From contig JANSXP010000039.1 of the NCBI GenBank assembly GCA_024742875.1, forward strand, positions 1 to 64,000: a stretch of DNA of 64,000 nucleotides. The letters run 5' to 3'. Below are positions 26,264 to 38,651 of this stretch, piece by piece; within the stretch, counting starts at the first letter, position 1, and every line of letters starts with the position of its first letter. A program made the translations under genes and the position numbers. This DNA is from Planctomycetaceae bacterium (GTDB lineage Bacteria; Planctomycetota; Planctomycetia; Planctomycetales; Planctomycetaceae). The notes under the pieces are model-generated. The model was not told the origin of the DNA and made no database searches. It saw nothing but the letters and a program-made list of their open reading frames with translations.

Positions 26264-26660
26264 GAGGCCTTCCGGCAAAGGACATCAGGAATTTGTGCGG
26301 TCAACGCTGGGATCAGCAAACAACGCACCAAAGTGTTGAAACGTGCGGGAGCCATTGATGGGGGAAGGAACGATGCCACCAAGCCCCGATTTTCCATATT
26401 CGGTAGTCAGTCACGCACGCTCACGACAGAGAAATCGGCATCCGGCCCTCTGCCCCGTCGATTTCGTATCAGACCGCTCCCCTGCCCCCGTTTCCATCAC
26501 GGAAATCCAGTTTAGAGCGTAATTTGCCAGAGCAATGCCGAACTTGCCGAATCTCAGGGAATCACCCGCAGGGGCATCACGTAAACCTAAGTTGCAGCGC
26601 AGCAAAAAGGGTGAACGACCTGTGTCGTTCACCCTTGAAATGTTCTTCACTGCACTCCGA
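26264..26660. other. Leader region of exosortase A with a terminator
   Basis: About 397 bp between the PEP-CTERM gene 1 stop and exosortase A. A strong minus-strand hairpin terminator is at 26604-26637. The remaining 340 bp hold no credible coding frame and probably contain a separate promoter for exosortase A. No promoter boxes can be named with confidence. Confidence 0.4.
26604..26637 (-). terminator. Intrinsic terminator after PEP-CTERM gene 1
   Basis: On the minus strand a 13-bp perfect stem AAGGGTGAACGAC / GTCGTTCACCCTT with an ACAG loop is followed by a short T-run. It begins about 23 bp after the PEP-CTERM gene stop. It should limit read-through into exosortase A. Confidence 0.88.
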
Positions 26661-27215
26661 CTAAGCGGCTCGCTTGCGGCGAATCCGCCATGCAGCCAGA
26701 CCGCCGACCAGGAACAGAGCACAGCTGGATGGCTCTGGAATAGCAGCAGGAGTGGAAAAATTGGTCGTGATGTCAAATACGTAAGAATAGATGCCATCCG
26801 GAGACTCATCCGGAGTGTCGATAAAGATGAAATCGACACCGTCGTCGATTAGTGCCGCGCCCCCATTTCCGCCGGTTCGGGTGACGTCAGTGATGACCTC
26901 TGTAGGGTCGTTTGTGAAGTCAATATTTGAAAAGTCCCAAGCAACGGCAGTACCTAAGGAAGTGAGTCCATTCAGGTTCACGGTCAACGTTAGAACGTCG
27001 CCTGTGAAGTCGAATGTGTATCCAGCCCCAAAACTGTCTGTGTCTGAAAAGTCTGGATTCAACAGAGAAACATCAGCCACTGTTCCTGGCATTCCGCCAA
27101 TCGTCTCTGCGCCACCATCGACCGTTATGTTGTAGTCAACGGACATGATGGTTGCGTTCGCCACCGACGCGATAAGGCAGGCTGAGATAAATTTAATTAC
27201 CGGCCCAAATTTCAT
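26661..27215 (-). CDS. PEP-CTERM protein 1
   Basis: A 184-aa exported protein with both ends of a sorting substrate. There is an N-terminal signal peptide (MKFGPVIKFISACLIASVANA). The C-terminus has PEP at 160-162, a hydrophobic helix (CALFLVGGLAAW) and a basic tail (RIRRKRAA). The central part is Asp/Thr/Gly-rich and beta-like with no recognised domain. AAGGA lies eight bases before ATG 27215. It is followed by a terminator and then exosortase A, its probable processing enzyme. It lies 25 bp downstream of the DUF1559 gene and may be co-transcribed with it. Confidence 0.9.
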   Translation of the reverse strand: MKFGPVIKFISACLIASVANATIMSVDYNITVDGGAETIGGMPGTVADVSLLNPDFSDTDSFGAGYTFDFTGDVLTLTVNLNGLTSLGTAVAWDFSNIDFTNDPTEVITDVTRTGGNGGAALIDDGVDFIFIDTPDESPDGIYSYVFDITTNFSTPAAIPEPSSCALFLVGGLAAWRIRRKRAA

Positions 27216-29236: not shown

Positions 29237-30772
29237 TCAGTTTGTGTCCTCTGCAGCCAGGCTGCGGTGCTGGTCTGCAATTCCCTGCATCCCCAGATTT
29301 TCATACACCGTCGCCAGGTTGCGATGAACGGCCGCCTTGTTGGGGACACCTTTCAAGGCTTTCTCCAGATCATTCAGCGCTAGCCGCCAGCGTTCCAGTT
29401 TCACCAGAATCGTACCACGCGTATCCAGAAATCTTGCGTTCTCGGGATCTGCTTCCAGAGCTGACGTCACCATTCCCAGCGCCCGTTCCAGATCCGGGTC
29501 GCTTTCATCGTGTGCCAGCATCCACGCCATATTGTTGAGCATGATGGGCACATCCGTTCGCTGGCTCATGGAAATGTCGAAGTGGATCCGTGCCTGGTCA
29601 TGGTCACCTTCGAGCCAGCACAGGTTTCCAATCGCCATATGCGCCAAAGCTGGCTCTTGTGCTTCAGAGACGACGCGTTCCAGGATCTCTCGAATTTCCA
29701 CATTCCCCTCAACAGTGGCCTCCGCGTACGACATCAGTCGTTTCAGTGATGCCGCGTGGTTGGGATCAAACGTCAATGCTTTTGCCAGTTGCGAAAGCAG
29801 CAGCGAGATCGGGCGCCCTTCTCTTTGCAGGATGTCGTGATAATTCTGGTACACACCAGCCAGCATCCAGTTCCAGTTCCCGTTGTATTCCGGAGAGACA
29901 ATCAGCCCTTCCTGCAGGACCTGTTCAGCCTTTTGGAATTCGCCCAGCTTCACGAAACTCTGTGCCAGATCGGCCCGAGGCGCATACTCTTTCGGCGATT
30001 CTTTAACCTCCTCGGTAAAGTGATCCACGGCCTTGCGAAACGTAGCCCGTGCGACTTCGACGTCGCCCAGCCCGGCTTCAATATTGCCAAGGGGGATCAG
30101 TACCTCCGGATGCTGCACCACAGACATTGCCAGGTATCGTCGGGCTTCTTCGAAGTTCCTGACAACAATGGAGTAGCGGCCCCATGCCATGGCGAGACCA
30201 GGCGATCTGACAGTGCCGGCGCAGTCGAGATGCCAGCGAAACTCCTCCAATTCCGCTGCCGAAGTCTGCTCGTTGATTCGGGGCGCGAGCAAAACGACAA
30301 GTCGCTCATGCGCTTTGGGGAAGCCCTTTTTTTGGCGGGGAGCCAGCGTGCGGAAAAGCGCCTCGGCTCGGTCCGTGTTCCCGCTGTTCTCCCACTGCCG
30401 AGCAAGCTCAAACTTGGCTTCCTGCACGTGGGTGAAGTCGTCCTGAATCACGCGGTTCAGCATCAACCGGGCAGTCTCTGCGTCTTCACTGAGGATCGCA
30501 CTCGTGGCACGTTGCCAGTAAGACTCGGCCGTTTTCTCTGCATTGCTTCGCGCGAGAACAGCCAGCGTGACGACGCCGGCGAAAACCAGCATCGCTGGAA
30601 GACCCAGCAACAGGTTTCTTACTCGGCCTTTCTTGAATCCGCTGGTGACGGAAGAAAACAGCCACTTGAAGAACTTCGCGTAGAAGGCAAACGTCAGAAA
30701 CTTTGGCAGCTTGATTTTTCTGCCTGACGATTTCCAGCGGCGTCGATAGCGTTTGAGCAGTGATTCACTCAT
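29237..30772 (-). CDS. Membrane-anchored TPR protein of exosortase module B
   Basis: A 511-aa protein: a strongly basic N-terminus (RYRRRWKSSGRKIK), one membrane helix near 53-74 and then TPR repeats. It is clearly paralogous to the module C protein (shared LLxGLPAxL before the helix, YW near 80, a LAHMAIGNLCWLEGD-like block and a DTRGTI block at the end). ATG 30772 overlaps the exosortase B stop by 8 nt. A scaffold role for polysaccharide or PEP-CTERM protein assembly is inferred from context. Confidence 0.88.
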   Translation of the reverse strand: MSESLLKRYRRRWKSSGRKIKLPKFLTFAFYAKFFKWLFSSVTSGFKKGRVRNLLLGLPAMLVFAGVVTLAVLARSNAEKTAESYWQRATSAILSEDAETARLMLNRVIQDDFTHVQEAKFELARQWENSGNTDRAEALFRTLAPRQKKGFPKAHERLVVLLAPRINEQTSAAELEEFRWHLDCAGTVRSPGLAMAWGRYSIVVRNFEEARRYLAMSVVQHPEVLIPLGNIEAGLGDVEVARATFRKAVDHFTEEVKESPKEYAPRADLAQSFVKLGEFQKAEQVLQEGLIVSPEYNGNWNWMLAGVYQNYHDILQREGRPISLLLSQLAKALTFDPNHAASLKRLMSYAEATVEGNVEIREILERVVSEAQEPALAHMAIGNLCWLEGDHDQARIHFDISMSQRTDVPIMLNNMAWMLAHDESDPDLERALGMVTSALEADPENARFLDTRGTILVKLERWRLALNDLEKALKGVPNKAAVHRNLATVYENLGMQGIADQHRSLAAEDTN

Positions 30773-32459
30773 TCCCCGACTCCTTAACAGCGGTAAGAAT
30801 TCGGCTGCGGAGATCGACAAACAGGTGTTTGGCTGATCGCAACTCGTGAGGCATGAATGATGTTTGCTGACTGGTCATCAACTGAATCTGAAAGACGGGG
30901 GGCGAGACGGGCTGTGCCCTTTCCGCCATCAGGCTGCCGGCTCTGAGGCGGTCCAGGATCTTGCGGATGCCGGTGCCGTTCGGGTCTTTGGGTTCGATCG
31001 CCGCCTGCTGGCTGTCGTAGCAGGAAAACAGACTGACTGCGTAGTCGCCAGAGTCACGGTACAGCCCCAACTGGCAGACGGGGGCACCGGCATCCGTGTT
31101 TTCGTTAAACGCAGATTCAATTTTCCACCCCAGTGCTGCATAGCAGTAACTCAGGTCATGCCATTCTGAATAGAAGCCATCCAGCGAAAACTCGACTTCC
31201 ATACCTTCACCTGCAAACGTCCAGATAATGGAGTTGGCTCCCAGCGGGTCATCCGGGTTTCGATTGACCACACGGACGCCTGTTTGCTGCCATTGCCCGA
31301 TCTGCTGCGGCAGGGCGTCTTCGCCGATCAGATTGGTGATTGGCTCATCGAAGTTCACCGTTGCAGCGCTTTCGGGAGCGGCTCGCAGAGCACCAATCGC
31401 CGAGTATCCCGTCAATCCCAGGTAGATCACAAGTACCGAAGCGAGAGCCGCCCGTGTGCCGGTTTTCGAAGTGCGTCCATCGTTGAAGAAAGAAGCGACA
31501 GACTTTCTGACCTTCTTCAGCCGGTAGGCAAATGAGTCGTCCATTGCACCCGCAGTCTTCTTCTTAAAGACGCTTTGGCTGTCGGCATCGATGGGGACCA
31601 CAAATCGCAGGATCTGGTCGGTGCTGAGCGACATTAATAAGCCCAGTGCGTAAGTGCAGACACCGAGGAACTCATGCGGAAAGCCGGTTTCCAGATCCAT
31701 GCCCCAGCGTTCGCGGGCAAACACAATCGTGAAAACTCGCAGGCAGTTGGCGACGCAGACCCAAAAGGCGGTCTGGAGCAAAGTCAGGCCGATGCGAATG
31801 CCGCCATAGTGCCCTAACGCTGCCAGCATCGACATCGCGGCTACTGAGCTGAACAGCGAGTGAATCCCGCTACATGCTTCCTCCACCATGTAGTCACGAG
31901 ACGCTGTCTGAATGGCCACTCCAGAGATGGTGTGGCCAATGCCGGCAAGGTCCAGTAGTTGCCCGGCGGATGCCGTTGCCAGTTTCTGCAGCTCCAGAAT
32001 GAGCCTCAGGTCAAGGTTGAGGGGAAGCGGAACGGCAAGCAGAAGCAAAGCGACAGGTCCTCGCAGTTCGTTTGCCAGTTCGGTGCCTCCGACAAACCAG
32101 ATGGCCGTCCAGCAGGCAAGGATCGCTGCCAGAACACCAAGCCAGTGGCTCGATGTGATATGCGCCAGGATAAACAGAGACATCGCCAGAACAGCGTAAC
32201 ACGCGACCCGCACGGAGATTTGGCAGACTGGCGACCAGTCCCTTCCGTTCAGCCGAAACCACGCCAGGGCAGCACTGCCGATCAGAACAAGTGGGAAGAA
32301 CTGATAATGATCCCGTCCCCAGAGCCACTGAGAAAGCGAGATCAGGAAAGGGGAATGCAGCAGCAAAACTGCGACGATTGACACCGCCACCAGTTTCAGA
32401 CCACGTTTTTCTTGTTGCTCCACTCGTTTCGCTCCGGGCCCGCAGAATTTGAGGCGCAT
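30765..32459 (-). CDS. Exosortase B with fused EpsI-like domain
   Basis: A 564-aa fusion. Residues 20-290 form the polytopic exosortase with Cys196 (VEEACSG), Arg241 (ANCLRV) and His262 (TGFPHE). After a soluble loop there is another helix (about 336-356), then an EpsI/DUF3485-like periplasmic domain containing QIGQWQQTGVRVV and FYSEWHDLSYCYAALGW. EpsI is often a separate neighbour of exosortases; here it is joined. ATG 32459 lies 59 bp after the PEP-CTERM 2 stop, with a terminator in between. Confidence 0.92.
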   Translation of the reverse strand: MRLKFCGPGAKRVEQQEKRGLKLVAVSIVAVLLLHSPFLISLSQWLWGRDHYQFFPLVLIGSAALAWFRLNGRDWSPVCQISVRVACYAVLAMSLFILAHITSSHWLGVLAAILACWTAIWFVGGTELANELRGPVALLLLAVPLPLNLDLRLILELQKLATASAGQLLDLAGIGHTISGVAIQTASRDYMVEEACSGIHSLFSSVAAMSMLAALGHYGGIRIGLTLLQTAFWVCVANCLRVFTIVFARERWGMDLETGFPHEFLGVCTYALGLLMSLSTDQILRFVVPIDADSQSVFKKKTAGAMDDSFAYRLKKVRKSVASFFNDGRTSKTGTRAALASVLVIYLGLTGYSAIGALRAAPESAATVNFDEPITNLIGEDALPQQIGQWQQTGVRVVNRNPDDPLGANSIIWTFAGEGMEVEFSLDGFYSEWHDLSYCYAALGWKIESAFNENTDAGAPVCQLGLYRDSGDYAVSLFSCYDSQQAAIEPKDPNGTGIRKILDRLRAGSLMAERAQPVSPPVFQIQLMTSQQTSFMPHELRSAKHLFVDLRSRILTAVKESGNE

Positions 32460-32464
32460 TAAAA

Positions 32465-32490
32465 AAGCCGCAGTGGAAAACCACTACGGC
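32465..32490 (-). terminator. Intrinsic terminator between PEP-CTERM gene 2 and exosortase B
   Basis: On the minus strand the stem GCCGTAGTGG / CCACTGCGGC (one mismatch) with a TTTT loop runs into six Ts. The T-run ends two bases before the exosortase B start codon, so any read-through transcript has almost no leader between terminator and start. This suggests strong substrate expression and low enzyme expression. Confidence 0.88.
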
Positions 32491-32518
32491 TCTATTGTTT
32501 TTCGCGATGAGGCTAATC

Positions 32519-33193
32519 TCAAGCGATTTCTTTTTTCGCTTTGCGTCGACGGACAATGACAGTGCCGCAAAGTCCGGTCAGACCGAGAAGAGCGATCGAG
32601 GCAGGCTCAGGAACGGCAGCGATGGACGCAGCAGTGTTGCCGAACGTCGCGACGCCGCCTCCACCGATCGCCGTTGCTGTAAAGACCAGATCTACGCTGT
32701 CGACTGTCGAGGCGAGCAATCCATTGCCCAAGTCACGGCCGTCGAGGCCAATCACGGTTGGCGCGGTGATTGCGATTGGGGCGAAGCTGGCGGAAGCACC
32801 TGCCGTTGAACTTGTGTAAGTCGCGACAAGTTCCCAAGCTCCTTCGACAGTGTCGAAAAGATCCAACACGAGTGGGTTCGCCGCCAGCCCCGAACCAGTG
32901 CTGTGCAGGTCAAATGGTGTCGCGAAGTCATAGGTCATGGTGAAGACCGACCCGATCGCGGTTCCAGTCGCGTTAAAATTACCACCGCCAGTGGAAATCG
33001 TCGTGAATGGTGCGGGCAGTGGCGGGGTGGTGATCGTCCGGTCCACGCCCGGAGCAGTCGTCACTGTTCCCCCGGTGACCGGAAGTGTCTGGACTGTTTG
33101 GGCGATTGCGAAATCGTCGAGAACAAAGTCTGCTTTTGATTCGGCTGCGGTCGCCAGAACCAAGGCGGACGCCACAAGAAGAAGTTTTTTCAT
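32519..33193 (-). CDS. PEP-CTERM protein 2
   Basis: A 224-aa exported protein from ATG 33193. The signal peptide is MKKLLLVASALVLATAAESKA. The C-terminal sorting signal is VPEPASIALLGLTGLCGTV followed by the basic tail RRRKAKK. The body is Thr/Gly/Ala-rich and includes DLHSTGSGLAANPLVLDLFDT and GLDGRDLGNGLLAS, which are closely matched in PEP-CTERM protein 3. It lies upstream of exosortase B and ends in a terminator. Confidence 0.92.
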   Translation of the reverse strand: MKKLLLVASALVLATAAESKADFVLDDFAIAQTVQTLPVTGGTVTTAPGVDRTITTPPLPAPFTTISTGGGNFNATGTAIGSVFTMTYDFATPFDLHSTGSGLAANPLVLDLFDTVEGAWELVATYTSSTAGASASFAPIAITAPTVIGLDGRDLGNGLLASTVDSVDLVFTATAIGGGGVATFGNTAASIAAVPEPASIALLGLTGLCGTVIVRRRKAKKEIA

Positions 33194-33310
33194 GTTGCAC
33201 CGTGCTGTAAAAAAGGGAGTCGAGATACGGTAATCCGGCCAACAAAGCAGAGTCAAACAAAAAGCAGGAAAAAGTTTCAGAACCAACACAAACTGCCAAG
33301 GTTGCCAGGT

Positions 33311-34858
33311 TTATCGCCCGAGGAGCTTCTTCGCCTGGTCGCGGAAGCCATCTGCGATTTCATGCATCTTCAACGCTTCATAGATCTCTGCCAGGCGATT
33401 CAGGATGTCCGGCTTTTCACGGTCTGGCATCTGCGGTAGAGCGGCTTCAAGGTCAATGATCGCCTTCTTGTTGTTGCCCATCTTCATATAGATGGTGCCC
33501 CGAGTGTCCAGAAACTCGGGTCGCCCCGGGGCCTGCTCTAGGGCAGACTCCACGAACGCTAGGGCACGGGGAAGGTCAGGCGGATCGTCATGGGAGATCA
33601 ACCAGGCGAGGTTATTGAGAACGATGGCCATGTCTTTGCGAATCGACACCGCGAGTTCAAAATGGAAAGAGGCCGTTTCACGGTCCCCTTCCAGCCAACT
33701 GAGATTGCCCAGAGCCAGATGAGCCAGTGCAGGCTCATTTCCCTGTGATATCGCCCGCTCAAGAATTCTCCTTAGCTGTTCGTTGTTCCCCGACCCAGTT
33801 CTCGCGTAACTCATGAGACGATTTAAAGCAGAGGGGTGGTTCGGATCGCATTCCAATGCACGCCCGAGCGGTTCGAGCAGTTCAACGATCGTTGCACCGT
33901 CTGCCTTCAATACATCGTGGAGATACACAGCCAGTGAGGCTTGCAGAGACGACCAGTTCTCCTCGGGGTTGATAGCACGTCCGGCCTCCAGAATCACGTA
34001 TGCATCGTCGAGTCGACCGAGTTTCATCAACACATTCGCATAGTCGACTCGGGCTCGATAATTCTCCGGGGACCGCTCAAGCTGTTTCTGAAGGTGATCA
34101 GCAGCTTTCTCGTAGTATTCCCGCGCAGGGGTTGGATTGCGAAGTCGTACCTCAATTTCGGCAAGTGTCTGATACACATCTGGAAATCGGTCGACCGCCT
34201 TTAGCAGTTGTTTTCGAGCTGTTAGTAAATCACGATTGGCGAGAGAGTATCTCGCCCATGCAAGTGCCATTTCAGGGCTGTCTGCGTCTCGCGCAGCATC
34301 AAGATGCCAGAGTAGGCGACGCTTGTCCTCTGACGAACTTTCCGGCGAAATCTGGTCGGCGAGGATAATGGCAAGACGACGGTGAGCTTCCGAATAGCCT
34401 TCGGAGGCGTCTGGTGCGAGTATTTCGAACAATGATTCCGCTCGATCTACTTGCCCTGTATCGCTGTATAGCTCGGCGAGCGCAAAGCGAGCTTTGTTTT
34501 GGAATGCTGATTGGTCTCTCAGGATCCTTGTCAGGAGCAATTCTGCCTTTTGGTATTGCTGGCTGGCCAGAGCGGATTCAGCTTCTGTCCAATAGGTGCC
34601 CGCGGCGTTGTGTCCCTGTAGCCCCGCATTGCCCAGCATCATCCCTGCTAAGACGCTGAAGAGAATTGCGGGCAACCCAAATAGGAGATGCCTGAACCGC
34701 TGACCTGTTTTCCAGTTCTCATACAGCCAATGAAAAGGGAAAGTGAGCAGGTGCCACCAGAATTCGAACCTCAGCAGGTCCGGCAACTGGATACTTCGGA
34801 GCGTGCCCCAGAAACGTCGTTTCTGGAAACTCCACCATTCTCTCAGACGTTCCATCAT
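33311..34858 (-). CDS. Membrane-anchored TPR protein of exosortase module C
   Basis: A 515-aa protein with an aromatic, basic N-terminus (LREWWSFQKRRFW), a membrane helix near 58-76 and TPR repeats to the end. Paralogous to the module B protein along its whole length. ATG 34858 overlaps the exosortase C stop by 4 nt (ATGA), so translation is coupled. Probable scaffold partner of the exosortase, by context. Confidence 0.88.
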   Translation of the reverse strand: MMERLREWWSFQKRRFWGTLRSIQLPDLLRFEFWWHLLTFPFHWLYENWKTGQRFRHLLFGLPAILFSVLAGMMLGNAGLQGHNAAGTYWTEAESALASQQYQKAELLLTRILRDQSAFQNKARFALAELYSDTGQVDRAESLFEILAPDASEGYSEAHRRLAIILADQISPESSSEDKRRLLWHLDAARDADSPEMALAWARYSLANRDLLTARKQLLKAVDRFPDVYQTLAEIEVRLRNPTPAREYYEKAADHLQKQLERSPENYRARVDYANVLMKLGRLDDAYVILEAGRAINPEENWSSLQASLAVYLHDVLKADGATIVELLEPLGRALECDPNHPSALNRLMSYARTGSGNNEQLRRILERAISQGNEPALAHLALGNLSWLEGDRETASFHFELAVSIRKDMAIVLNNLAWLISHDDPPDLPRALAFVESALEQAPGRPEFLDTRGTIYMKMGNNKKAIIDLEAALPQMPDREKPDILNRLAEIYEALKMHEIADGFRDQAKKLLGR

Positions 34859-36507
34859 TTGACGCCCTTTCGCATGTCACTCACGGCGGCGCGCGTGAGT
34901 TCGACAAACAGTTCTTTGGCCTGATCCAATTCGTGGGGCAGCAACTCGCCTTCACTGGCCACCATCAGTTGGCACTGATAGACGGGCGGAGTGATGGATT
35001 GACTGCTCTGCTCCTGCCTAAATCGATTAAGCAGTGTGCGTAGGGTTGAGCCGCTGGGGTCCGGTGGCTCCACAGAAGTGTGCTGGCCGTCAAAGCAACT
35101 GAACCAGCTGACCGCGTTTTCGCCCGATTCCTTGTAGAGATCCAGCACCGTGCCGTGATTGCCGTCAAGAGTCACATTGCGGGCTTCGTTGAGCTTCCAG
35201 TCCAGGGCCGTGTAGCAATAGGCCAAATCGTGCCACTCTCCGTAGTAGCCATCCACAGAAAACTGCGCCAGCATTCCGTTGCCTTCATAGGTGTAAACTA
35301 CAGAGTTCGTTCCCAATGGGTCGTCAGCAGATCGCTCGACTTTATCCACAGCCGTCCGTTTCCATTGCCCATATTTTGCAGGGGTCGACGACTCCGTTAC
35401 GCTTTCCAACACAGATGTTTGAAAGGCCGCTCCGCCGGTACCCGCGCTTGCTGAGGGAAGCAACTGATACAGGCTCAGCACGCACAGCGGCAGCATACAC
35501 AGTGCGAGGGTGCCGTTGACGATTCGACCTGATCCGGCTTCATCCAGTCGTGGGCGATCCAGGAACTGCCGAATCTTTTGTCGCACAGTGGGATCATTCT
35601 CACCACCGTAGTACTGATCACCGGGCTTGCCCTTTCCGGTGGGGGAATCAGAGAGTTTGCCCCAAACAACTGGCACGAAAAACTCGAGCAGTTGTGCTGT
35701 GCTAAGTGAGCAGATCAATGCGCCCACGTAGGTGCCAATTCCGAGCAGGTCATGCCGCCAGCCCGTGTCGAGATTCTGCTGCCACGCGGCATTGGCGTAC
35801 ACAACCAGAAATACGCGAAACACGTTGGCCAGCACGACCCACCCCATGGAAAACAACAGCACCAGCAGACTGCGAAACAGACCGTACCGTTGAAACACAC
35901 AGAAGAACGCGACAGCCGTAACACAGGAAAACAGAGAATGAACGCCACTGCACGCTTCTTCCACCATGAAGTTGCGATCAAGTGTCGTGATAGCAACTCC
36001 TGAGACCGTGTGCCAGATGCGTCGGTCGTCCAGCATGTTGCTCGCCAGGCGTGTGGCCAGTTTCTGAAGTTCAATGACGAGCGTAAGGTCCAGATTCAGC
36101 GGCAACGGAATCGCCAGAAACAGAAAGGCCACGGGGCCACGTAACCTGCGGGCGATGGCTGGCCCGCCCACGTAGCGGATCGCGGTCCACAGGCTGATGA
36201 TGGCCCCAATCGACCCGATCCAATTACTGTTGAACCAGACGGCCACAGCGAATACGGCGACAGAGAGCATTCCCAGGCCGACAACTCGGACTGTCAGCAC
36301 AGGAGCGTGATTCCATTTGGTGTCTGCCAAACGCAGCCACGCCAGCAGTCCGGATCCCATCAGCACCAGCGGAAAAAACTGGTAATGCTCGCGTGACCAC
36401 AGCCAGATGGCCATGGAAATGAGAAAGGCGGCGTGTGCGGCGACCACTGCCGCAACGATCCATTGCGGGCGTTTTTGAACATCGGTTGACATCTTTTCGT
36501 TCTGCAT
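34855..36507 (-). CDS. Exosortase C with fused EpsI-like domain
   Basis: A 550-aa paralog of exosortase B. The triad is complete: Cys186 in VEEACSG, Arg231 in ANVFRV and His252 in TGWRHD. The C-terminal EpsI-like domain has KYGQWKRTAVDKV and YYGEWHDLAYCYTALDW. Start is ATG 36507, only 33 bp after the stop of PEP-CTERM gene 3. The close match to exosortase B in both halves indicates duplication of the whole module. Confidence 0.92.
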   Translation of the reverse strand: MQNEKMSTDVQKRPQWIVAAVVAAHAAFLISMAIWLWSREHYQFFPLVLMGSGLLAWLRLADTKWNHAPVLTVRVVGLGMLSVAVFAVAVWFNSNWIGSIGAIISLWTAIRYVGGPAIARRLRGPVAFLFLAIPLPLNLDLTLVIELQKLATRLASNMLDDRRIWHTVSGVAITTLDRNFMVEEACSGVHSLFSCVTAVAFFCVFQRYGLFRSLLVLLFSMGWVVLANVFRVFLVVYANAAWQQNLDTGWRHDLLGIGTYVGALICSLSTAQLLEFFVPVVWGKLSDSPTGKGKPGDQYYGGENDPTVRQKIRQFLDRPRLDEAGSGRIVNGTLALCMLPLCVLSLYQLLPSASAGTGGAAFQTSVLESVTESSTPAKYGQWKRTAVDKVERSADDPLGTNSVVYTYEGNGMLAQFSVDGYYGEWHDLAYCYTALDWKLNEARNVTLDGNHGTVLDLYKESGENAVSWFSCFDGQHTSVEPPDPSGSTLRTLLNRFRQEQSSQSITPPVYQCQLMVASEGELLPHELDQAKELFVELTRAAVSDMRKGVK

Positions 36508-36540
36508 AAGTCAGAGGTTCTTCGGCCGTTGCCCCTAAGG

Positions 36541-37269
36541 TTATCTTGATGTCTGGTAGGTGCAGAACAAAAAAAAATCGCAGTGAACTGAGTTCACTGC
36601 AATGACACCACCAATACCCGTCAGGCCCAACAGGGCGATGGAGGTTGGTTCTGGTACAGCTGTCACCATAGCGCTCGTGCTTGAAAGCTGTGCTCCAATG
36701 CCAGCGTCGATGGTGCCGAGTGACAATGCTCGGAAGTCAATCGTGATGTCGTCGACGCTCGAAGCAAGTGCCCCGTTGCCGAAATCACGACCGTCAACGG
36801 CCAGACTGCCAATGTCGCTGCCATCTGCAATTGCAATCCAGCCCGTGTCAACTGAACCGAACAAGTCACTTGCGTAAGTGATCATGACTTCCCAGTCGCC
36901 GATCACCGTGTCAAAAAGGTTGAACAGAACTGGGTTGTTGGCAATGCCCGATCCGGTGGAATGCAGGTCAATCGCCGTGTCGAATGCGTATGCGAGGCGA
37001 GTTTGTACTGCGCCCATCATTGAGGTTGAAGTCACCTGGTTCAGGAAACTGCCACCACCTGCCGAAGTAGCGCCAAAACCGCTGCCAGCAAAACGTGTCA
37101 AGGTTCGAGTACCGGAGACATCACCAGTCAACGCAACGCTAGGACCAGTGCTTGGAGCCAGTAGCGTCTGTGCAGGGATGTTCCCAAAGTCATCGATGAC
37201 CATGCTGGCAGTTGATGGCGACGCCATCAGACCGACTGCCACGGCTGCGAGAGCCAAGTGTTTAATCAT
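36541..37269 (-). CDS. PEP-CTERM protein 3 with aberrant C-terminus
   Basis: A 242-aa exported protein: signal peptide (MIKHLALAAVAVGLMASPSTA), a body paralogous to PEP-CTERM protein 2 (DLHSTGSGIANNPVLFNLFDT and VDGRDFGNGALAS), PEP at 206-208 and a hydrophobic helix. The expected Arg-rich tail is missing. From residue 226 the frame instead reads NSVHCDFFLFCTYQTSR, which is the DNA of the gene's own terminator hairpin and T-run. A deletion that removed the tail and original stop is the simplest explanation. Neither other frame restores a basic tail. Sorting by exosortase is therefore uncertain. Confidence 0.85.
   Translation of the reverse strand: MIKHLALAAVAVGLMASPSTASMVIDDFGNIPAQTLLAPSTGPSVALTGDVSGTRTLTRFAGSGFGATSAGGGSFLNQVTSTSMMGAVQTRLAYAFDTAIDLHSTGSGIANNPVLFNLFDTVIGDWEVMITYASDLFGSVDTGWIAIADGSDIGSLAVDGRDFGNGALASSVDDITIDFRALSLGTIDAGIGAQLSSTSAMVTAVPEPTSIALLGLTGIGGVIAVNSVHCDFFLFCTYQTSR
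36571..36600 (-). terminator. Intrinsic terminator lying inside the PEP-CTERM 3 reading frame
   Basis: On the minus strand a perfect 9-bp stem GCAGTGAAC / GTTCACTGC with a 3-nt loop is followed by GA and nine Ts. The stop codon of the gene (36543-36541) lies beyond the T-run. Transcripts ending here would carry no stop codon. Confidence 0.88.
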
Positions 37270-37460
37270 TGTTCCACCTGCTGTTTTGAATCTTGTGGGG
37301 GAGATAAGGGATGGCTTTTCTCGCCAATACCCCGCCCAAACTACCGACTCACCTCCACTGCGGTCAAAGTTTGCTCAGAGAAAACCCCCAATTTAACCCA
37401 AACTATGGAATCGGAAAGTTCTGTACAGCTGGGCTTTGCCTTCCATGTAGGCACAGTTGT

Positions 37461-38651
37461 TCACTGAATCGGCATTGATGGGGGGCGTTTGTTCACCGCT
37501 ATGCTGTAGTGGGCTGCGACACTGGCCGCTGAATTTGGCCACGTATAACGGGATTCTGCCAGCTCTCTCCCGGCATCACCCATAGCCTGTCGATTCGCCG
37601 TTGAGCTGAGCAGTCCGCCGATTTCTTTGGCGACCGAGTGCTGATTCAGCTCACAGTGAATCGCGGCACCGGCATTCACGAGGTCCTGCCAGATATTGAT
37701 GCGATTGCTGATGACGGCTGGGGTTCCCATTCTTAAGGCTTCGACCAGCGCAATGGCGAAATTCTCCTGATACGAAGGGAGTGCGAACACGTCTGCCGCC
37801 GCCAGGGCGCCCCATTTCATGTCACCCGCCAGTGGCCCGGTGAAGACGGTGCGTTCGGCGATTCCGTTTGTCAGACACAATGCTTTGAGCTCTTCCAGGT
37901 ATTCTGGCTCGCCAGGGCCCACCAGAATCAGTCTTCCGTCCATAGTGCCATTCATGACCTGACGTGCTGCCGGGATAAGCAGATCCAGTCCCTTTTTGGA
38001 GTGCAGCCGGCTCAACAGCATGATGCGAGGACCGCTGGTGCACTCAGGGAATCTTTCGAGAAAAGCGGCCGCCAGTTCTTCTCGTGACCGTGCTGGCGGA
38101 GCTTCCACTCCCAAGCTGGCAATGAATCCCTCTGGCAAATCGACACACGTCTGATGTGCCAGGCGTTCCTCTTCCGTATGGGTAAAGAAGAGACCGCGAG
38201 CTTTCCGCAGCGACGGCCATTCGACCAGCCTTCCATACAGCCGCTTTTTCCAGGGTTTGCGACCCATGGAGTTCGGATCCAGCATGCCATGTGTGCTGAC
38301 CACAAAAGGCACGTTGAACCGGGGGCAGAACTTAGCCGCCAGTTGATTGCAGTAGCTCCACACATTGTGGACGTGGACCAGATCGAATTCTGGCAGTCTT
38401 CTGACAAACTCCCGTTTCAATTCAGGACTGTAGCCAAAGCCTCGGGGACCTTTGAAATTGCAAACGGTAATGGGATACCTGGCAGAGTAGTCCTGTTTCC
38501 AGTCGGGGCTCGATCCGTCGTCATACGAATCGGTTGTGAGGACCTCTGCCTCGATTCCCTGCTTCCGCAGTTCAAAACACCACTGGTCGACGACGACCGG
38601 AGGGCCGCCGGCCGATGGATGCATGTAGGGAATCAGGTGCAGGACCTTCAT
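37461..38651 (-). CDS. Glycosyltransferase family 4 (GT-B)
   Basis: A 396-aa retaining GT-B enzyme that moves sugar from a nucleotide donor. The N-terminal acceptor domain begins MKVLHLIPYMHPSAGGPPVV; the C-terminal donor domain has MLLSRLHSKKGLDLLI and the EX7E motif in SYQENFAIALVEAL. The start ATG 38651 overlaps the previous gene's stop by 4 nt. It is the last gene of the polysaccharide cluster, and the 190 bp after it lead to PEP-CTERM gene 3 without a visible terminator. Confidence 0.92.
   Translation of the reverse strand: MKVLHLIPYMHPSAGGPPVVVDQWCFELRKQGIEAEVLTTDSYDDGSSPDWKQDYSARYPITVCNFKGPRGFGYSPELKREFVRRLPEFDLVHVHNVWSYCNQLAAKFCPRFNVPFVVSTHGMLDPNSMGRKPWKKRLYGRLVEWPSLRKARGLFFTHTEEERLAHQTCVDLPEGFIASLGVEAPPARSREELAAAFLERFPECTSGPRIMLLSRLHSKKGLDLLIPAARQVMNGTMDGRLILVGPGEPEYLEELKALCLTNGIAERTVFTGPLAGDMKWGALAAADVFALPSYQENFAIALVEALRMGTPAVISNRINIWQDLVNAGAAIHCELNQHSVAKEIGGLLSSTANRQAMGDAGRELAESRYTWPNSAASVAAHYSIAVNKRPPSMPIQ

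Follow-up and report, generated by a model that had tools for sequence, protein, structure and literature searches.

A PEP-CTERM gene that runs in frame into its own terminator: a probable local deletion in a planctomycete XrtU cassette

Non-stop genes and PEP-CTERM systems

In Bacillus subtilis, a rho-independent terminator lies within the coding region of brfA and yields non-stop transcripts and tmRNA tagging (PMC6881298). According to the same report, brfA encodes a factor that rescues ribosomes and is active in its truncated form. For arfA from Escherichia coli, the stop-less mRNA is reported to be repressed by trans-translation and to act within a feedback loop. For pepA-prsT of Aquincola tertiaricarbonis, a putative stem-loop terminator has been noted between the PEP-CTERM gene and the gene that follows it in the system (PMC9850573). 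The basic region of PEP-CTERM was taken as a likely cytoplasmic anchor in the original description (PMC1569441). Our literature search found nothing that links PEP-CTERM with trans-translation and, among the matches listed, no paper that names XrtU.

Here we analyze a PEP-CTERM gene (gene 3) from a Planctomycetaceae bacterium. As in brfA, an intrinsic terminator lies in its coding frame, before the stop codon, so by analogy a non-stop outcome would be expected mechanically, and repression by trans-translation may be shared with arfA. Gene 3 differs from brfA in that no use is evident for its truncated product, and its protein is unrelated to that of arfA. The arrangement is also seen in no relative, so it is not kept among homologues. 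The pepA-prsT terminator is intergenic and follows the ORF (PMC9850573), whereas the terminator of gene 3 is inside the frame.

The stretch of DNA that we analyzed (the window) is 64,000 nucleotides long and contains two tandem PEP-CTERM - XrtU - TPR cassettes, at 37269-33311 and 33193-29237 on the minus strand. The features that we refer to are:

36541..37269, minus strand: PEP-CTERM gene 3, 242 amino acids (from the sequence, the ORF list and partial PEP-CTERM model matches)
36541..36594, minus strand: terminator-derived tail NSVHCDFFLFCTYQTSR*, 17 codons plus the stop, in the place of the RRR tail
36577..36603, minus strand: intrinsic terminator hairpin of gene 3, 12 bp (from terminator scans and folding)
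36569..36577, minus strand: run of nine T; RNA that ends here has no in-frame stop
36591..36600, minus strand: candidate deletion junction, where GCAGT (36600-36596, helix codons) abuts GAACT (36595-36591, 5' arm of the terminator)
34855..36507, minus strand: exosortase XrtU of the gene 3 cassette, open over 550 amino acids, with its start 33 nt past the stop of gene 3
33311..34858, minus strand: TPR protein, third gene of the gene 3 cassette (from the ORF list and model matches)
32519..33193, minus strand: PEP-CTERM gene 2, the tandem copy, with an intact tail (VRRRKAKKEIA) and stop
32464..32493, minus strand: terminator of gene 2, 25 nt past the stop, which is the ordinary arrangement
30765..32459, minus strand: XrtU of the gene 2 cassette (from the ORF list and the XrtU model)
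29237..30820, minus strand: TPR protein of the gene 2 cassette
26661..27215, minus strand: PEP-CTERM gene 1, tail intact (RIRRKRAA)
26607..26636, minus strand: terminator of gene 1, 24 nt past the stop, with too few T for the rule of our survey script

A preliminary description of this locus gave gene 3 as 36541-36640, which covers only the 3' end of the full ORF, and it named the enzyme downstream exosortase C. That enzyme is instead XrtU (NF033780, 130.5 bits with a cut-off of 40), and the gene 3 locus has the order of an XrtU cassette (substrate, XrtU, TPR). This XrtU is 50% identical to the XrtU of a relative, G003, and 44% identical to that of the neighboring cassette; unlike these identities, the tree of the substrates puts gene 2 with G003. 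Gene 1 precedes another exosortase-like gene (26278-25178). The genome has a tmRNA gene (148.3 bits, tag ATPQYSLAA) and 32 PEP-CTERM matches at E ≤ 1, 21 of which are above the cut-off.

The C-terminus and terminator of gene 3

Like other planctomycete PEP-CTERM substrates that are adjacent to XrtU (TIGR02595/PF07589, NF033780), gene 3 has an N-terminus that resembles a signal peptide (judged by eye), a PEP motif and a hydrophobic helix, and it precedes xrtU and a TPR gene. The near-invariant Pro-Glu-Pro is found at the expected place (AVPEPTS). The helix has a mean Kyte-Doolittle hydrophobicity of at most 2.31 over 15 residues, versus 2.29 in gene 2, to which gene 3 is 42% identical. Unlike those substrates, gene 3 lacks the basic cluster, and its stop lies past the terminator. 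The translated C-terminal end is AVPEPTSIALLGLTGIGGVIAV-NSVHCDFFLFCTYQTSR, with a single R/K residue C-terminal to the helix, and the net charge after the helix is 0, versus +5 in its sister gene 2. The last 17 codons are the terminator hairpin, the nine T and bases beyond. The in-frame TAA ends at 36541, which is 28 bases past the T-run (36577-36569); the frame is otherwise free of stops. The preliminary description had noticed that PEP and the helix are present without the Arg cluster, that the terminator is translated instead, and that the stop codon lies past the T-run; the sequence, the ORF and the charge bear this out.

Both PEP-CTERM models stop at position 19 of 24 in gene 3. The Pfam model (PF07589) gives 16.4 bits in a whole-protein scan (positions 1-19 of 24, cut-off 20.7). 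In the genome search, the same site scores 20.4, or 21.1 with its neighbors, which is just above the cut-off. The NCBIfam domain (TIGR02595) scores 17.6, with a cut-off of 16.

The hairpin stem (36603-36577 in the terminator scan) has 12 pairs, five of them G-C, with a loop of 3 and the T's after it, and its 5' arm doubles as the I-A-V codons at the end of the helix. The folded RNA has a predicted energy of -15.9 kcal/mol and a z-score of -4.41, and just one of 200 shuffled sequences folded as well or better. A stringent scan found four strong terminators in the 64-kb window, and three of the four are at PEP-CTERM genes 1, 2 and 3. A simpler scan, covering 28-44 kb, gave 18 sites, versus 15.8 in shuffled sequences, so only the strong sites carry much meaning. 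We found no Rfam match at the gathering score in 32000-38000. A sigma-70 scan gave nothing promoter-like in the interval from gene 3 to xrtU, but this carries little weight (4 sites, versus 7.8 in shuffles); the scan gave a weak site (9/12) at 32522-32494, between the stop of gene 2 and the gene 2 terminator.

We considered two other accounts of the altered end. Slippage on the nine T does not provide an Arg tail: the frames with one T more or fewer are long and open, and neither has an RRRK-type tail directly after the helix. We also set aside a mobile-element origin of the palindrome, as relatives carry an ordinary terminator at the matching position.

Tails, stops and terminators in other substrate genes

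We surveyed 80 PEP-CTERM genes, 30 from this bacterium's own genome and 50 from relatives. (Two of the 32 Pfam matches in its own genome have no locus and were left out, as were the duplicates L024 (the same as L065), L098, L102 and L113 and many lower-scoring matches. The L058 substrate is outside the 80, and four of the 80 rows, L050, L051, L112 and L114, have no exact PEP.) At least three R/K residues follow the helix in 78 of the 80, a count that is biased toward tail-bearing genes because the survey was drawn from the best-scoring matches; only gene 3 and L049 have fewer. A script detected 26 terminators, and 25 of these start 23-93 nt past the stop; only that of gene 3 starts before it (-63). 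The other 54 genes have no terminator by the script's rule, which misses the one at gene 1.

L049 (G000:C106:3369-3416) is a short tail-less ORF from the same genome as gene 3. It ends in FGAIQELGS, no terminator fusion was detected there, and it is perhaps a decayed fragment.

A comparison among neighbors of XrtU is less dependent on the score bias of the survey. We compared gene 3 with 11 substrate-XrtU pairs from three genera: gene 2; one pair each from G003, G066, G143, G156, G145, G151 and G159; and three from G004. The XrtU-like genes of G066, G143, G156, G145, G151 and G159 came from tblastn of the window's XrtU against the downstream DNA (35-48% identity). The model of the XrtU C-terminal domain matches the enzymes of gene 2, G003, G143 and two of the three G004 pairs. 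In G156 it gives 20.9 bits (cut-off 40), on a piece of sequence that ends inside this domain, and the pairs from G066, G145, G151 and G159 were assigned by tblastn only. The first G004 enzyme (L056 6979-7974) has 331 amino acids and no match to the XrtU C-terminal domain; a substrate gene and a TPR-like gene flank it.

A basic tail and a stop are present in all 11 of these pairs. In nine of them a terminator lies past the stop: eight were found by the script, starting +25 to +66 nt from the stop, and that of G159 by sequence and folding (a bulged hairpin with a T-run, -20.9 kcal/mol). The script detected no terminator in the more distant G004 pairs (L058 and L059), nor in a pair at G000:C76, where the exosortase fails the XrtU model. 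The gap between substrate and XrtU in the 11 pairs ranges from 59 to about 770 nt.

We also found a homologue in G006 (L053 1078-1356) that has 92 amino acids and lacks its N-terminal part, with the tail, stop and terminator intact; this member of the family is damaged too. In G006, the two XrtU genes (L054 and L055) are on contigs other than that of L053, and no PEP-CTERM gene was found near them in the stretches scanned.

Thus, none of the 12 other substrate genes (the 11 adjacent to XrtU and the truncated G006 gene) has a terminator before its stop. The peptide that the terminator encodes in gene 3 was found in no relative examined. The preliminary description had named as a test a relative with an in-frame RRRK-type tail and a stop before the hairpin; this test came out positive, as all 11 pairs and the truncated G006 gene have a basic tail and a stop, and every terminator detected among them lies past the stop. 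In a comparison of ten genes, identity to gene 3 was 24-43%. An alignment of the substrates (A1) has matches (E ≤ 1e-4) in six of the eight genomes of the genus, including its own, some in the C-terminal signal only, and in 47 of 170 genomes of the family, many by short C-terminal stretches.

No genome of the same species was found, either by searching genome contigs with XrtU and alignment A1 or in a search over the own genome and 57 relatives, in which two others matched. The XrtU pattern search of genome contigs gave 11 pattern matches and no relative. The alignment A1 search of genome contigs, covering at least 596 stretches, gave one locus, L064 (from a metagenome-assembled Planctomycetaceae), which is apparently the G003 contig.

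Counting gene 3, ten pairs have the order substrate - terminator - XrtU. The terminators of this layout are:

32464-32493 and 36577-36603 in the window, and at L052, L056, L068, L070, L071, L072, L073 and L074: terminators between substrate and XrtU, from three genera

As two G004 pairs (L058 and L059) have no detected terminator, the layout marks a subgroup. The XrtU start is 12 bases past the T-run in G004 (L056), and in G145 a candidate start is about 22 bases past it (counted). This tight spacing leaves hardly any room for a promoter, so read-through seems the likely source of xrtU mRNA there. Elsewhere the gap is long, about 330 nt in G066 and about 770 nt in G151, and a promoter could sit in gaps of that length. 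We suggest, for the tight cases only, that read-through keeps the exosortase scarce. The terminator-less G004 pairs and the long gaps weaken the generality of the layout, but not the case for a deletion in gene 3.

Origin and consequences of the fusion

We think it quite likely, judging from the sequences compared here, that gene 3 was once an ordinary substrate of an XrtU cassette, and that a local deletion of some 60-70 bp removed its tail, stop and spacer and fused the helix in frame to the terminator. Aligned by MAFFT with no hint given, six 3' ends show a single gap in gene 3, between GCAGT and GAACT. Gene 2, G003, G004 (L056) and G006 have 58-62 nt (counted) between the first codon of the tail and the hairpin, which together with the flanking helix and hairpin bases points to a loss of some 60-70 bp. 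A short repeat was probably the site of the deletion. Judging by the 3' arm of the hairpin, the expected 5' arm is ATCGCAGTGAACT, and gene 3 has ATTGCAGTGAACT, which differs by one base and leaves a G.T pair. At the position of this pair, the letter would come from the helix codon ATT instead of from the terminator. The G.T pair would be explained if the deletion ran from GCAGT in the helix codons to GCAGT in the terminator arm, with the second copy of the repeat presumed to have been in the lost sequence. The pair could also be a simple point difference.

In relatives, wherever a terminator is seen, it lies past the stop. This supports decay of gene 3 by a local deletion, or else an artefact that mimics such a deletion, and speaks strongly against conserved control. 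The deletion itself is inferred from the relatives, no intact copy from the same species having been found. The preliminary description had offered a decayed substrate or a read-through control; the tails and stops of relatives favor decay, and control, which is seen in no relative, is unlikely. The stop-free frame, the NCBIfam domain cut-off that is still passed and the branch length are points against decay. In a tree of the proteins the terminal branches are 0.65 for gene 3, 0.30 for gene 2 and 0.57 for G003; these sequences are distant, and gene 3 is not clearly decayed. Overall, gene 3 gives the impression of a gene damaged locally in an ordinary way, and not of a control switch that has been conserved.

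It is unlikely, although it deserves to be taken seriously, that the real gene has its tail, stop and spacer and that the deletion exists in the consensus only, through a wrong join at the hairpin or a strain that is in the minority. The assembly has 168 contigs and a contamination of 2.05%, and the tail is kept in 78 of the 80 PEP-CTERM genes. Hairpins are difficult spots for short reads, and the break is at one. However, the junction shares about five exact bases, which is probably too few for an ordinary k-mer join, and the hairpin is complete, whereas skipping by a polymerase would remove it. That the altered C-terminus is a working feature of a tail-less variant, either as an anchor (with the extra hydrophobicity of FFLFC) or through release that does not depend on the exosortase, strikes us as the least probable account of all. 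The frame is intact, PEP and the helix are conserved, and the NCBIfam cut-off is passed, but the T-run encodes the FFL residues, so no selection is needed to account for them, and those same 78 genes keep the basic tail.

We regard it as very unlikely that the terminator was recruited in frame as a working control, in which a ribosome translating the frame sets whether transcription terminates or continues into xrtU, protein is released from read-through mRNA only, and tmRNA clears the rest, as in brfA and arfA. A strong hairpin with nine T lies in frame, a tmRNA gene is present, and the frame stays open until a stop codon 33 nt ahead of an open xrtU; BrfA shows that real control by an in-frame terminator does occur (PMC6881298). 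But none of the 11 other substrate-XrtU pairs, nor the G006 gene, has this arrangement, a feature that defines the sorting signal is missing from the new tail, and no relative seen shares the terminator-encoded peptide. Less probable still is that the deletion itself turned a stoichiometry terminator into a translation-sensed switch, with ribosomes blocking the hairpin and tmRNA clearing the non-stop rest. If it were true, exosortase output would follow the translation of the substrate.

If gene 3 arose by local deletion, the terminator may originally have been a partial stop between abundant substrate mRNA and scarce exosortase mRNA. Slippage or recombination between short GCAGT repeats would then have removed the tail, stop and spacer, joining the end of the helix in frame to the gene's own terminator. 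Most transcripts would now end in the T-run, with no stop codon, and on the terminated RNA translation would come to a halt near ...NSVHCDFF. Given the tmRNA gene in the genome, these non-stop products should be tagged, and then degraded. The 242-residue protein would come from rare read-through mRNA; it has the helix but lacks the basic anchor in the cytoplasm, and is probably a poor substrate for XrtU. Read-through would also reach xrtU, unless it has its own promoter. The XrtU and TPR genes behind gene 3 are open and could serve other PEP-CTERM proteins of the cell. With 32 PEP-CTERM matches in the genome and XrtU open, the loss of one substrate would be tolerable.

Gene 3 would thus be a clean natural case of a short deletion at a terminator that makes the terminated mRNA stop-less while the operon behind it can still be reached. 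More widely, a subgroup of XrtU cassettes in three planctomycete genera has an intrinsic terminator between the substrate and the exosortase, in some cases with next to no room for a promoter behind it, which suggests that the enzyme may be made from read-through mRNA.
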